A stretch of 64,000 nucleotides of DNA, from contig OX328112.1 of NCBI GenBank assembly GCA_946811185.2, positions 25,263,558-25,327,557 on the forward strand, in the 5' to 3' direction. Under the pieces are notes generated by a model that was not told where the DNA came from, did no database searches, and worked only from the letters and a program-made list of their open reading frames with translations. Of this stretch, positions 14,091-62,176 are shown in pieces (positions within the stretch are counted from its first letter, which is position 1; each line of letters begins with the position of its first letter). The translations under genes and the position numbers were made by a program. Source of the DNA: Hippopus hippopus. Taxonomy: Eukaryota; Mollusca; Bivalvia; Cardiida; Cardiidae.

Positions 14091-14315
14091 TTAACCCATT
14101 ACCCCACGATGCCTACTTTTGACGACCCTGGAAAAGAAGCCTTTTGAAAATACTGTAGGTTAAGGAGAAAATGCTGGTAAACAGTATTTTCTCCTTTACC
14201 CACAATGTTTTCTACCCAATCAAAGCAAGATTACATTATTTGAGTCACATTGAAATTGTCGTCTGCAAATGCTTTCAATTTGGACAAGACTAAAATTTTG
14301 TCGTCAGGTACAGTA
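14091..14315 (-). mobile_element. TTAA-P element, right end lost
   Basis: Everything from the left TTAA to 'ttttgtcgtcaggtaca' is present. Its final TTAA is replaced by the start of the 46-bp tandem repeat. Confidence 0.82.
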
Positions 14316-14317
14316 TT

Positions 14318-14756
14318 GCTGCCAACAAACATTAGGGGAAAACCTTTGTTAGAACAAAGTGTCGCTGCCAACAAACATTAGGGAAAAACCTTTGCTAGAA
14401 CAAAGTGTTTCTGCCAACAAACATTAGGGAAAAACCTTTACTAGAATAAAGAGTTGCTGCCAACAAACATTAGGGAAAAACTTTTGCAAGAACAAAGTTT
14501 TGCTGTCAACAAACATTAGGGAAAAACTTTTGCTAGAACAAAGAGTTGCTGCCAACAAACATTAGGGAAAAACCTTTGCTAGAACAAAGTGTTGCTGCCA
14601 ACAAACATTAGGGAAAAGCTTTTGCAAGGACGAAGTGTTGCTGCCAACAAACATTAGAGAAAATCTTTTGCTGGAACAGTGTTGCGGCCAACAAACATTA
14701 GGGAAAAAACCTTTGCTAGAACAAAGTGTTGTTGCCAACAAACATTAGGGAAAAAC
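14318..14756 (+). repeat. 46-bp minisatellite, about 9.5 units
   Basis: Unit begins 'gctgccaacaaacattaggg' and continues 'aaaaacctttgctagaacaaagt'. Unit starts at 14318, 14364, 14410 and 14456 show an exact 46-bp period. Later units differ by a few substitutions and small indels. Flanked on the left by a truncated TTAA-P and on the right by half of another. Confidence 0.92.
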
Positions 14757-14863
14757 CTAATTAAAAACATTGTTTAGCGGCATTTTCTCCTTTTCCTACA
14801 TTGTTTTCAAAATGCCTCTTTCTCAAGGTTGTTGAAAGTTGGGATTGTGTGGTAAAGGGTTAA
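14757..14863 (+). mobile_element. TTAA-P right half
   Basis: Only the second palindrome arm ('agcggcattttctccttttc') and right terminus 'gtgtggtaaagggttaa' remain. Confidence 0.8.
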
Positions 14864-20600: not shown

Positions 20601-20640
20601 CATACTACAAAGGAAATCGGCACGCCAATTGAATAAAAGT

Positions 20641-20870
20641 TGTTACTGGAGACCACTCCTTCATGCATAGCTTCGTCCTGATTTAAATACAATACGTGAC
20701 AAGTGCGTTGGGGAGATATCTCTTTAGCTCAGTGCTTATGGTATTGGTCTTTTAAACCTCGAAAAATGAGGATATTTGTCCGCCGTGGGTTCGAATCCCG
20801 CCAGATGTGGTTTGTATTTCAGCCATGCATTTGTTCATTTGTTTCTTAGTTACGGACTTTGTTCGTAAGA
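20641..20870 (+). repeat. LTR 1 with tRNA-like sequence
   Basis: 230 bp, starts 'tgttactggagaccactcc' and ends 'gttcgtaaga'. Its A box differs by one base from the other units ('agtgc' for 'agtgg'). Confidence 0.85.
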
Positions 20871-20888
20871 TGGGGGCTCGTCCGGGAT
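20871..20888 (+). promoter_or_regulatory. Primer-binding site, tRNA-Pro type
   Basis: TGGGGGCTCGTCCGGGAT, complementary to the 3' end of tRNA-Pro and placed directly after the LTR, as in retroviruses and LTR retrotransposons that prime from tRNA-Pro. The units at 21217 and 21555 each have one mismatch. Confidence 0.85.
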
Positions 20889-20975
20889 TGGCCATTGAGC
20901 CATTAATCCCATTTGTTGTCCGAAAACGGACTTTCTGCCTAATAAGGCTTTGAGTCATCAATAAATGATGACTTT

Positions 20976-20986
20976 AAGAGGGGATG
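20976..20986 (+). promoter_or_regulatory. Polypurine tract
   Basis: 'aagaggggatg' directly before LTR2. The equivalents are 'aagagtgggtg' before LTR3 and 'aagagggggtg' before LTR4. This is the expected plus-strand priming site. Confidence 0.7.
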
Positions 20987-21216
20987 TGTTATGGGAGACC
21001 ACTCTTTCATGCATAGCTTCGTCCCGATTTAAATACAATACCTGACAACTGCGTTTGGGAGATATCTCTTTAGCTCAGTGGTTATGGTATTGGTCTTTTA
21101 AACCTCGAAAAACGAAGATATTTGTCCGCCGTGGGTTCGAATCCCGCTGAATGCGTTTTGTATTTCAGCCATGCATTTGTTCATTTGTTTCTTAGTTACG
21201 GACTTTGTTTGTAAGA
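20987..21216 (+). repeat. LTR 2 with tRNA-like sequence
   Basis: 230 bp, 'tgttatgggagaccactct' to 'gtttgtaaga'. Contains 'tttaaatacaatacc', a possible TATA-like region, ahead of the tRNA-like part. Confidence 0.85.
21071..21144 (+). promoter_or_regulatory. tRNA-like Pol III promoter (A and B boxes) in LTR 2
   Basis: The A box TAGCTCAGTGG (21071-21081) and B box GGTTCGAATCC (21134-21144) match the tRNA internal promoter consensus. Between them is 'ggtcttttaaacc', which resembles an anticodon arm with TTT, then a possible long variable arm 'cctcgaaaaacgaag'. The D stem does not pair, so a working tRNA is unlikely. The same arrangement is in LTR1 (20725, 20788), LTR3 and LTR4. Confidence 0.75.
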
Positions 21217-21322
21217 TGGGGGCTCGTCCTGGATTGGCCATTGAGCCATTTGTTGTCTAATTAATAGACTTACTGCCTAATTGGACTTTCTGTCATCAAA
21301 ATGATGACTTTAAGAGTGGGTG

Positions 21323-21554
21323 TGTTACGGGAGACCACTACTTCATGCATGGCTTCGTCCCGATTTAAATACAATACCTAGCAGCTGCGTTAGGGAGATA
21401 TCTCTTTAGCTCAGTGGTTATGGTATTGGTCTTTTAAACCTCAAAAAAAAAAACGAGGTTATTTGTCCGCCATGGGTTCAAATCCCGCCAGTTGCAGTTT
21501 GTACTGCCATGCATTTGTTCATTTGTTTCTTTGTTACGGACTTTGTTCGTAAGA
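21323..21554 (+). repeat. LTR 3 with tRNA-like sequence
   Basis: 232 bp. The variable-arm-like part has an A-run expansion, and the B box has one change ('gggttcaaatccc'). Confidence 0.85.
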
Positions 21555-21670
21555 TGGGGGCTCGTCTGGGATTGGCCATTGAGCCATTAATCCCATTTGT
21601 TGTCCGAAAACGGACTTTCTGCCTAATAAGGCTTTGAGTCATCAATACATGATGACTTTAAGAGGGGGTG

Positions 21671-21900
21671 TGTTACGGGAGACCACTCCTTCATGCATAG
21701 CTTCGTCCCGATTTAAATACAATACCTGACAACTGCATTGGGGAGATATCTCTTTAGCTCAGTGGGTATGGTATTGGTCTTTTAAACCTCGAAAAACGAG
21801 GATATTTGTCCGCCGTGGGTTCGAATCCAGCCGGATGCGGTTTGTATTTCAGCCATGCATTTGTTCATTTGTTTCTTAGTTACAGACTTTGTTCGTAAGA
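21671..21900 (+). repeat. LTR 4 with tRNA-like sequence
   Basis: 230 bp ending 'gttcgtaaga', followed by the target repeat aagt rather than by a primer-binding site. It is therefore the true 3' LTR of the array. Confidence 0.85.
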
Positions 21901-21904
21901 AAGT

Positions 21905-22786
21905 AGGTACTTGATTTTGAAAATGACAGTAAATCAAAGTGCTCAATAAAGAATTATATGCACTTGCAATTGAAAAGTGGGTCTCTGTTAACTTGGCTAC
22001 AGAAGGAATTATGCGAAAATTACACAGATGTGCACTTCGTCACAAAGCTCTCATGCACAAAATTTCAGAAGCATCAAACCTTTGGTTTATTTTTGATTGT
22101 GACTGTACTTCATATCATACGATTTTACAGATGACATGGTCACATAATGCAACTATCTAATCCACTACCCAGTGGTAAATTTGTATCAACACTTTCCTAC
22201 ATCAAGTGTTGCACCAGATTTAGCGACTTGGATTGGGTTGAATAATTCTTCTTTTTGAGGAATTATTGATATTGGTGATTCAGAGTGGACAACTTCAGAT
22301 TTATATTTCAGGTAATTGAATGCCATCTGGCTAATTTGAAGTTTATATCATTTGATACTCGCAATGGTAATATCAAAGGGATATAATTTATGAGAGAAAA
22401 GAGTTCATAAATGAAAGCCCTCAATTGCCTGTAAATTTCTATAGATGTAATTGCCCACTTTTCTATTGGCAACTCAAGTAAATCTTTATAAAAACAACCT
22501 TTATGATTTTATTTTCAGACTACATGCTTTTTTATGATATTTTGCCTTTATAACTGGATACCTGGATTGAAGTAATGAAAGAGCGTTTTATTGAAGCTCA
22601 TTGATTTTTCAACAAAACATTTGGAACTTATTCATTAATCGTGCAGTTTTGATTAATTCTTTGCTGTAAGGAGGTGGATGGTGTATCCTTATAATGTGTT
22701 ATTGGACTTAGATTACGAGCTAGGCAACTGGCTAATGAATCAGAGATTCTAAATCTGACTCCTATAGCCGGCTGAATTTGATTCAT
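21905..22786. other. No gene assigned
   Basis: The first part is probably the remaining 5' flank or terminus of the interrupted mariner. A 73-codon frame at 21939-22160 has no recognised relatives. The rest is AT-rich and unassigned. Confidence 0.3.
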
Positions 22787-24533: not shown

Positions 24534-26343
24534 TTAGCTCACCTGAGCACGAAGTGCTCAGGATGAGCTATTGTGATCACTCACCATCCATCGGCATCCG
24601 GCGTCCGTCCGTCCGTCCGTTCACATTTCTTTGTTTACACTCTAGCATCTACAAATATTAACCAATCAGCACCAAACTTGGTCAAAATATATATGACCAT
24701 AAGATCTCGGATGAGTTCGATTATGGGTGTAATCGGACTAGAACAACAGGAGTTATTTGCCCTTGAATTAGAAAAATTGCTATATTTGACTTTGTTTACA
24801 CTCTAGCATCTACAAATATCAACCAATCAGCACCAAACTTGGTCAAAATATATATGACCATAAGATCTCAGATGAGTTTGATTATGGGTGTAATCGGACT
24901 AGAACAACTGGAGTTATTTGCCCTTGAATTAGAAAAATTGCTATATTTGACTTTGTTTACACTCTAGCATCTACAAATATCAACCAATCAGCACCAAACT
25001 TGGTCAAAATATATATAACCATAAGATCTCGGATGAGTTCGATTATGGGTGTAATCGGACCAGAACAACTGGAGTTATTTGCCCTTGAATTAGAAAAATT
25101 GCTATATTTGACTTTGTTTATACTCTAGCATCTACAATTATTAACCAATCAGCACCAAACTTGGTCAAAATATATATGACCATAAGATCTCGGATGAGTT
25201 CGATTATGGGTGTAATCGGACCAGAACAACTGGAGTTATTTGCCCTTGAATTAGAAAAATTGCTATATTTGACTTTGTTTACACTCTAGCATCTACAATT
25301 TGTAACCAATCAGCATCAAACTTGGTCAAAATACTTATTACTATAAGATCTCGGATGAGTTCAATTATGGATCTAATCGGACCAGAACAACTGGAGTTAT
25401 TTGCCCTTGAATTAGAAAGTTCTTTGGAATAGTTCTTTGTCCGGAGCATAACTTTGTCATCTCCAGTCTGATTGACTTGAAACTTGGCATTTGTAGTTGT
25501 TGCAATAATACAAAGTGCAGTGTGAAAGAACCATAACTCTACCTCGTACTGTCTATTAGTTATTTCCCTTTGAACATCATTTTTACAGCATTTTCTGCTT
25601 GTCCGGAATATAACTTTGTCATCTCAAGCCTGAACATCTTCAAATTTGGTATGCATGATTGTTGTAAAATTACGGAGTGCAGTGCACAAGAACCATAACT
25701 CTTCCTAGTACAAATTTTGAGTTATTCCCCTTTGACCTTCATTTTTACAGCATTTTTTCCTTGTCCAGAGCAAAACTTTTTCATCTTAAGTAGGAATGAC
25801 GTGAAATATGGTATGCTTATTTGTTGCAATATGTGGAAGTGCAGTGCACAAGAATTGTAAGTCTACCTCGTGCTGTCTTTGAGTTATTTCCCTTTGATCG
25901 TCATTTTTACAGCATTTAGGCTTGTCCAGAGTATAACTTTGTCATCTCAAGTCAGAACGACTTCAAACTTGGTATGCATGTTTGTTGCAATATTACCGAG
26001 TACAGTGCACAAGAACAATAACTCTGCCTAGCGCAGATTTTGAGTAGTTCCACTTTGATCTTCATTTTTACAGTATTTCTTGCTTGTCTGGAACGGAATT
26101 TTTAAGTCTCAAGTCAAATTGACTTGAGACTTGGTAAACATGTTTGTTGCATTACCTGCCCTTTCCGATTATTATACCTCCTTGACAACTGGTGGTGGGA
26201 CGGGCTTATCTTGTGACAATTTGCCGCTCTTGTTTCATTATCATTTGGCCTTGAACCTCGATATTTGGTATTTATCTTCATTGTAGACCTTTACTGCTTA
26301 GTACTCAGGTGAGCGATATAGGACCATCATGTTCCTCTTGTTT
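24534..26343 (+). mobile_element. Dyad-headed element, gagcacgaagtgctc type, 1.8 kb
   Basis: Starts 'tttagctcacctgagcacga' with dyad 'gagcacgaagtgctc', then (gtcc)n. Inside are five 161-bp units and about four units of roughly 158 bp. It ends 'gctcaggtgagcgatatagg' and 'accatcatgttcctcttgttt'. The terminal 'gctcaggtgagc' is the inverse of the start. No real coding frame. Confidence 0.8.
24629..25430 (+). repeat. 161-bp tandem repeat, 5 units
   Basis: Unit starts at 24629, 24790, 24951, 25112 and 25273 with an exact 161-bp period. Each contains 'actctagcatctacaa', 'caccaaacttggtcaaaat' and 'aagatctcggatgagtt'. Divergence between units is only a few percent by eye, lower than in the neighbouring parts. 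Confidence 0.92.
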
Positions 26344-30435: not shown

Positions 30436-30664
30436 GAACTCTTTACCTCACAATCCCGACTTTTAACGACCCTAAGGAAGGAGACTATTGAAAACATTTT
30501 GGGAAAAGGAGAAAATGCTGGTAACCAGCATTTTCTCCTTTTCCCAAAATGTTTTCTACCCTTTCAGTAACAAATCTGATCATTTGAAACATGTTTACTT
30601 TCTCCTGTAAAAATGCCTTTATTAAAGACGAGTCAAAAAGCTTGTTGTGTGGTAAAGGGTTAAA
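30436..30664 (-). mobile_element. TTAA-P element
   Basis: Abuts the SINE head. Palindrome 30489-30555 near perfect; right TTAA intact. Confidence 0.88.
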
Positions 30665-42212: not shown

Positions 42213-43597
42213 GTTTTAGCTTACATGAGCACGAAGTGCTCAAGGTAATCTTTTGTGATCATGCTTTGACAGTTATCTGTTATGTGTTGTTCATTGCCTG
42301 TCGTCAAGTTTTGCCTTTTGCACGCTTTAGAGGCTTCATTTTCAGTCAAATACTCATGAAACTTGGCAAGAATGTATGTCTTGATAATATGTCAGAGGAG
42401 ATTGAAAATGGGTCACAATGGGTCAAAAACTAAGTCAGCAGATCAAATCTTTGAAAACCCTTCTGTACACTCTAGAGGCCACATTTTCAGTCCAAAACTC
42501 ATGAAAGTGCTTCAGAATGTTAGTCTTGATAACAATCTCAGACATCTTTGAAATGGATCATGTCAGGTCAAAAACTAGGCCACCAGGTCAAATCTTTGAA
42601 AAACCTTGTGTACACTCTAGAGGTCACATTTTCAGTCCAGTACTGATGAAAAATGGTTGGAATCTTTGTCTGGACAATATCTCTTTAAGAAATGCAAAAG
42701 GTTTTAAAGTGGTCAAAAACTAGGTCACCAAGTCAAATCTTTGAAAATCTTATGTACACTTTAGAAGCCACATTTTCAGTCCAATACTCAGGAAAGTTGA
42801 TCTTGAATGTTCGTCTTGGTGATATCTAAGGCAACTTTGACAATGGGTCATTTCCTGTTAAAAACTACATCACCTCGGGTCAGATCTTTGAAAAACCTTG
42901 TATACACTCTAGTGGCTGCTTTTTCAGTCCAATACTTATGAAAGTGGTTCAAAATGTTTATCTTGATAATATTTAGAACAAGTCTGAAAATGGGTCAAGT
43001 TGGTAAAAAACTAAGTCACCAGGTCAAATCTTAGAAAAACCTTGTGTACGCTTTAGAGGCCACATTCGGTCAAAAACTTTTTTTCAGTCTAATACTCATG
43101 AAAGGATGTTTATCTGGATGATAGGATGTTTATAAAAATGGGTTATGTTGGGTCAAAAAGTAGGTCACTTGGACAAATCTTTGAAAAAGCTTGTATACAC
43201 TGTAGAAGCCAATTTTTTTTAATCAAACATAAGAATTGGTCAGAATACTTGTCATGATGATACCATTGATAGGTTTGAAAATGGGTTACATCAGGTCAAA
43301 AAGTAGGTCACTTGGACAAATATAAGGAAACTTTGTGGACACTCTTGAGGCCACATTTCACTTCAAATCTTCTATGATGATACATGTATTTTCAATGAAA
43401 ATGGGTCAAGTTAAAAAAGTTGGCCACTGAGACAAATCATAGAAAAAGCTCGTATACACTCTAGATGTCACATTTGCAGTCCAATACATAATTGTGAAAG
43501 TTTGTTAGATTGTTTGTCTTGATATCTTGGAAATTGGTCATGTTGGGTCAAAAGTCTCAGGTGAGCGAATTCAGGGCCATCATGGCCCTCTTGTTTT
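42213..43597 (+). mobile_element. Dyad-headed element, 1.4 kb, with about 10 internal units
   Basis: Starts 'ttttagcttacatgagcacg' (dyad gagcacgaagtgctc) and ends 'tcaggtgagcgaattcaggg' and 'ccatcatggccctcttgttt'. Units of roughly 125-135 bp contain 'tacactctagaggccacatt' and 'gggtcaaaaactaggtcacc'. They are diverged, unlike the 161-bp units at 24629. Confidence 0.78.
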
Positions 43598-61946: not shown

Positions 61947-62176
61947 TTAACTCTTTACCAAAACAACAAAATTTTAGACTTGTCCATATTGAAAGCATTT
62001 GCAGACGACATAAAAAACGGGACTCAAAAAATGAAACTTGACTTTCAAAGAGTAGAAAACATTGTGGGAAAAGGAGAAAATGCTGGTTACCAGCATTTTC
62101 TCCTTTTCCCACAATGTTTTCAGAAGGCTTCTTCCCCAGGGTCGTGAAAACCAGGGATTTTTTGGTAAATAGTTAA
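61947..62176 (+). mobile_element. TTAA-P element
   Basis: Full length. Palindrome 62054-62121 apparently perfect. Confidence 0.92.

Follow-up and report, generated by a model that had tools for sequence, protein, structure and literature searches.

A tandem terminal-repeat retrotransposon in miniature with tRNA-like RNA polymerase III promoter motifs in its LTRs in the bivalve Hippopus hippopus

Positions 20641-21900 of the 64-kb stretch of Hippopus hippopus DNA analysed here (the window) were resolved by direct-repeat comparison into four long terminal repeats (LTRs) and three internal segments (INT), in the order LTR-INT-LTR-INT-LTR-INT-LTR. Tandem Repeats Finder returned exactly these boundaries, with a period of 346, 3.7 copies and a score of 1967. 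All parts lie on the + strand: LTR1 (20641-20870, 230 bp), internal segment 1 (20871-20986, 116 bp), LTR2 (20987-21216, 230 bp), internal segment 2 (21217-21322, 106 bp), LTR3 (21323-21554, 232 bp), internal segment 3 (21555-21670, 116 bp) and LTR4 (21671-21900, 230 bp), a single unit LTR1-INT1-LTR2 measuring 576 bp. An earlier note on this DNA, made from the letters alone, had described four near-identical LTRs of 230-232 bp; the lengths are confirmed, but "near-identical" is a little generous, since the LTRs share 90.3-94.8% identity over ungapped columns (6 pairs). LTR3 is the most divergent of the four, with no significant difference between the LTR3-LTR4 and LTR1-LTR4 divergences (P 0.20). 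Internal segments 1 and 3 are 97.4% identical, differing at 3 of 116 sites, and internal segment 2 is the divergent one, being 10 bp shorter, aligned with 12 gapped columns and only 86.7% and 85.7% identical to segments 1 and 3 (14/105 and 15/105 substitutions). The description of the internal segments as non-coding agrees with the lack, inside the array, of any stop-to-stop frame of at least 110 aa. No second copy of the array was found elsewhere in the window, where the remaining matches at E <=1 cover only 14-24 bases.

The array carries a set of marks typical of LTR elements. Directly abutting the LTR, each internal segment starts with the 18-mer TGGGGGCTCGTCCGGGAT or a form of it changed at one base. 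This start matches a primer-binding site (PBS) for tRNA-Pro at 18 of 18 positions in segment 1 (20871-20888, + strand) and at 17 of 18 in segments 2 (21217-21234, + strand) and 3 (21555-21572, + strand). When up to three mismatches are allowed, this 18-mer occurs at three sites in the window, one per internal segment, a number reached in none of 100 shuffles. Murine leukaemia virus (MLV) uses this sequence as its tRNA-Pro primer site. The same 18-mer is contained in the MLV PBS probe of a published study of proline-tRNA primer-binding sites. At the other end of the internal segments, an AAGAG-G-rich polypurine tract (PPT) precedes the next LTR in all three cases: AAGAGGGGATG, which includes the junction, at 20976-20986 on the + strand in segment 1, and AAGAGTGGGTG and AAGAGGGGGTG in the other two. 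Both the primer-binding site and the polypurine tract that the earlier note had placed in the internal segments are thus present throughout. The LTRs begin with TGTTAC (TGTTAT in LTR2) and all four end with GTAAGA. The whole array is bounded by a single target-site duplication, AAGT, which the earlier note did not contain, with its 5' copy at 20637-20640 and its 3' copy at 21901-21904; two 4-mers at this spacing agree by chance at 0.62% of window positions. A 5-bp duplication, AAAGT, is also possible if the LTR ends one base earlier, and would suit fungal and plant lineages; we prefer the 4-bp reading because the LTR ends TGTTAC and GTAAGA then form an imperfect inverted repeat. With primer-binding sites, purine tracts, LTR termini and an outer 4-bp duplication all in place, the identification of the locus as a tandem terminal-repeat retrotransposon in miniature (TRIM) holds.

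The LTRs contain motifs of a tRNA-type RNA polymerase III (Pol III) promoter, whose role here is putative. An A-box-like motif, TAGCTCAGT, lies at LTR position 85 in all four LTRs (20725-20735 on the + strand in LTR1, with starts at 21071, 21407 and 21755 in the others), and a B box, GGTTCRAATCC, lies at LTR position 148 in three of them and at 153 in LTR3 (GGTTCGAATCC at 20788-20798 on the + strand in LTR1, the others at 21134, 21475 and 21818). The spacing of about 63 bp between the boxes reported for each LTR therefore applies to LTR1, LTR2 and LTR4 (63 bp in each), LTR3 having a longer A run and a spacing of 68 bp. The string GGTTCNANTCC occurs four times in the 64 kb, counted over both strands, each time within one of these LTRs, against an expectation of 0.30, and none of 100 shuffles reached four; no B box was found in the window outside the four LTRs. 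A TATA-like box, TTTAAATA, sits 43 bp upstream of the A box (20682-20689 on the + strand in LTR1) and at the same place in LTR2-4.

The stretch around these boxes resembles a tRNA to a limited degree. In LTR1 (20718-20809, + strand) the Rfam tRNA model aligns from end to end, placing TTT as an anticodon-like triplet in a CTTTTAA loop and leaving about 20 inserted bases ahead of the T arm, at a score of 21.7 bits, below the threshold of 29, and an E of 0.12 over 4227 families. The same model gives 13.6 bits and a shifted alignment in LTR4. The sole match listed for LTR2, where two lower-scoring matches of the same clan were omitted, is a T-arm piece under the tmRNA model, and LTR3, scanned as part of the array, likewise shows a T-arm piece under the tmRNA model among the matches listed. 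The anticodon-arm-like piece described in the earlier note is visible as the CTTTTAA loop of the model alignment, but the tRNA fold itself is poor: the folding energy of the tRNA-like stretch of LTR4 has a z of +0.82 relative to shuffled sequences, 161 of 200 of which fold equally well or better, which leaves a stable tRNA fold unsupported. The insert between the anticodon-like arm and the T arm carries a hairpin-like CCTCGAAAAACGAGG in LTR4, and the variable-arm region may resemble that of tRNA-Leu. ARAGORN finds no tRNA gene in the window; in a relaxed mode it calls seven "genes" in the array, which were discarded as meaningless because some of them are antisense. Given the low Rfam scores and a fold in LTR4 no better than that of shuffled sequences, the tRNA resemblance appears to be confined to the boxes and arms, with no working tRNA.

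This combination of features corresponds to Helenus, a class of TRIMs with tRNA-derived sequence in their LTRs, described by Kojima (2024; PMC10886601) in fungi, a single plant and animals of six phyla (Ctenophora, Chordata, Mollusca, Brachiopoda, Nemertea and Arthropoda). The statement in the earlier note that no animal LTR with a tRNA-type promoter had been described does not stand against that report: TRIMs with tRNA-like LTRs have been known since 2024, and the present array is a further example. According to the passages of PMC10886601 that define the class, Helenus elements are short and gene-less, about 1 kb or less in length (311-1263 bp), a range that includes the 576-bp unit found here; they share TRGCY and GGTTC box motifs, here TAGCTCAGT and GGTTCRAATCC in 4/4 LTRs, and a tRNA-complementary PBS next to the 5' LTR together with a PPT, here in 3/3 internal segments. 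Target duplications are given there as 4 bp in animals and 5 bp in fungi and plants, and the AAGT of the present array, known from one insertion and also readable as 5 bp, is of the animal type. Its PBS also agrees with that account, which calls the PBS of Helenus Gypsy-like and reports tRNA-Pro sites among the bivalve families, of which it counts 51, and in Gypsy-13_CGi. Further parallels in the same source are the alignment of molluscan Helenus to tRNA-Lys-TTT (Figure 2d legend), comparable to the CTTTTAA loop here, and the tandem arrays of the zebrafish LTR-11_DR. The stretch of about 20 bases inserted between the anticodon-like arm and the T arm is a possible point of difference from Helenus. 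Every testable Helenus feature was found at the locus, which is assigned to the class by these features and not by a match to a named family. In PMC10886601 only a small number of Helenus families are predicted to encode a tRNA, "TRIMp3" is proposed as a name for TRIMs carrying a Pol III promoter, and it is stated that function cannot be concluded for Helenus until it is validated experimentally. A literature search that mostly covered journals outside subscription returned no further publications on Helenus or TRIMp3 and, among the matches listed, no additional LTR element driven by a tRNA-type promoter. None of six strings taken from the array matched in the main texts of the 5.39 million papers covered. 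The array adds a well-preserved case to the tRNA-type Pol III TRIMs (Helenus/TRIMp3), with two new details, a single duplication around a mosaic-looking array and a small number of T runs able to stop Pol III.

Transcription by Pol III terminates where at least four T follow one another. Among runs of at least three T on the array strand, 944/2136 reach four or more in the window outside the array, whereas the proportions in units 1, 2 and 3 are 1/14, 2/16 and 1/14 (nominal binomial P 0.0034, 0.0079 and 0.0034). A runs in the array are like the background (7/17 against 879/1985). Only 12 of 1837 overlapping 346-base stretches taken elsewhere in the window (both strands, step 25, at least 13 T runs of three or more) match units 1 and 3 in having no more than one T run that reaches four. 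The shortage is weaker when measured against dinucleotide shuffles (P 0.035, 0.081, 0.018 and 0.094 for units 1, 2, 3 and LTR4), and the units, which share ancestry, are not independent. A TTTT that could stop Pol III has been retained in every LTR in the anticodon-like loop, between the two boxes, and the fifth T run of at least four in the array is private to LTR2. A TTTT is also present in the 3' flank, at 21915. The polyadenylation signals AATAAA and ATTAAA are absent from all four LTRs; AATAAA is present in internal segment 1 only, segments 2 and 3 being without it. Together, the T-run pattern and the LTR free of polyadenylation signals provide an argument for Pol III use drawn purely from sequence, one that the Helenus families already published could put to the test.

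Sequence conservation across the LTRs gives mixed evidence on a Pol III promoter. Alignment columns 71-120, which start upstream of the A box and reach the anticodon-like arm, are variable at 2 of 50 positions, compared with 33 of 227 overall (nominal P 0.017, for a region picked after the alignment had been inspected). The B-box stretch (columns 141-166, 3/26 variable) displays no special conservation, and the 3' end of the LTR, which lies beyond the tRNA-like part, varies almost as little as the A-box stretch (3/49 variable).

These observations bear on an alternative in which the TRIM is driven by an ordinary RNA polymerase II (Pol II) LTR promoter with TTTAAATA as its box, the tRNA-like stretch being left over from the insertion of a SINE or tRNA and now without a role. 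Such a promoter would account for TTTAAATA at one position in 4/4 LTRs, 43 bp before the A box, a motif that may allow a Pol II start, and it is consistent with the poor tRNA fold and the ordinary conservation of the B-box stretch. The lack of AATAAA and ATTAAA in the LTRs, the retention of the box motifs in all four of them and the scarcity of long T runs, unmatched by A runs, argue in the opposite direction. Moreover, Pol III can itself make use of a TATA-like box that precedes a tRNA-type gene. We consider this alternative unlikely.

As to how the array grew, the single duplication that bounds all of it makes expansion in place after one insertion the most likely course. The divergence of internal segment 2 from segments 1 and 3 (14/105 and 15/105) exceeds that between the two outer LTRs (12/230; Fisher P 0.015 and 0.008), and for this reason the array looks mosaic. 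Because an element inserts with two identical LTRs, this excess points to the arrival of another copy that already differed, through recombination of cDNA or through gene conversion, although the argument would lose force if gene conversion had acted on the outer LTRs. The divergence of segment 2 and the mosaic look could also be produced by recombination between two separately inserted neighbouring elements, a mechanism that the relevant passage of PMC6934838 attributes to Yin et al. That origin predicts the 5' flank of one element and the 3' flank of the other, whereas the outer flanks here share AAGT, and we regard it as rather improbable. Both the mosaic and the shared AAGT would be better explained if the cDNA of a second element had recombined into a resident LTR, or by gene conversion.

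In a more elaborate version, to which we give little credence, the LTR element would be functional under Pol III, and the inter-box TTTT would determine where its RNA ends: as a leaky stop, read through in the 5' LTR but effective in the 3' LTR, it would yield a terminal repeat of about 40-50 nt. Nearly all remaining T runs would be limited to three so that Pol III is not halted, and the array would have arisen from the cDNA of a second, diverged sister element that recombined into a resident LTR. Least credible of all is a tRNA-derived satellite, that is, a tandem tRNA pseudogene without a retrotransposon history: the tandem arrangement and the lack of a further copy in the window would suit it, but a satellite is not expected to show a PBS, a purine tract, LTR termini with a TG start or a duplication, here AAGT, that bounds a whole number of LTRs in an array starting and ending with an LTR.

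We therefore favour, with a probability of roughly 85%, a Helenus-type TRIM without genes that inserted once, with a 4-bp duplication, and expanded to four LTRs and three internal segments through LTR recombination. The anatomy, motifs, termini and duplication can be read directly in the array; the life cycle proposed for the element starts from them and is conditional. The A and B boxes of an LTR would recruit Pol III, whose transcript would run through the internal segment into the next LTR. This RNA would be copied by the reverse transcriptase of an autonomous Gypsy-type element, with tRNA-Pro priming at the PBS and the PPT priming the second strand, and the integrase of the Gypsy-type helper would insert the cDNA with a 4-bp duplication. 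We infer the superfamily of this helper, Gypsy, from the published Helenus class.

Two other kinds of TRIM invite comparison. The bivalve element biv-TRIM, as portrayed in the relevant passages of PMC6934838, also forms tandem arrays in clams, of the form TDRx-I(x-1), and its terminal repeats of 202-218 bp are comparable to the LTRs of the present array. In contrast, no clear PBS is reported for it there, the PPT is GGGGAGA in most and the internal domain measures 77-80 bp; the biv-TRIM TDR forward primer had no match in the window at up to three mismatches. Cassandra of plants shares a Pol III-type promoter in the LTR of a TRIM and tandem arrays, while its LTR sequence is derived from 5S rRNA rather than from a tRNA, in the accounts given in parts of PMC7215508 and PMC10886601. 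No 5S rRNA was detected in the array, the three Rfam matches listed at E <=10 being tRNA and tmRNA.

Short matches to other genomes were also obtained. GAGATATCTCTTTAGCTCAG matched one contig of an archaeal metagenome-assembled genome (L001), and a 17-mer of the anticodon-like region matched two viral contigs (L002 and L003). All three were rejected as chance, because they share only 17-23 bases with the array at E <=0.01. No viral contig matched GAGATATCTCTTTAGCTCAG or the PBS 18-mer.

The window as a whole contains 13 stop-to-stop frames of at least 110 aa, of which the 10 that were scanned gave no Pfam match; one frame of 121 aa has 4122 relatives at E <=0.001. A short hairpin repeat, a near-perfect inverted repeat around AACATTGTGGGAAAAGGAGAAAATGCTGG, was located at 72 merged places between 1810 and 62125, some of them partial, with one query copy at E <=1e-3; examples lie at 62040-62125 and 30490-30556, and it looks like a MITE-type element. 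This repeat triggers sub-threshold microRNA matches, and the Rfam microRNA matches inspected elsewhere in the window are hairpins below the family thresholds and are not regarded as microRNAs here. Other tandem arrays in the window lie at 24629-25418, 25437-26151 and 42314-43066, with periods of 161, 162 and 145/290 bp, respectively, the first and the last of which open alike (CTTTGTTTACACTCTAG and CCTTGTGTACACTCTAG), and at 14312-14758, where a 46-bp unit is repeated in 9.7 copies with 88% matches.
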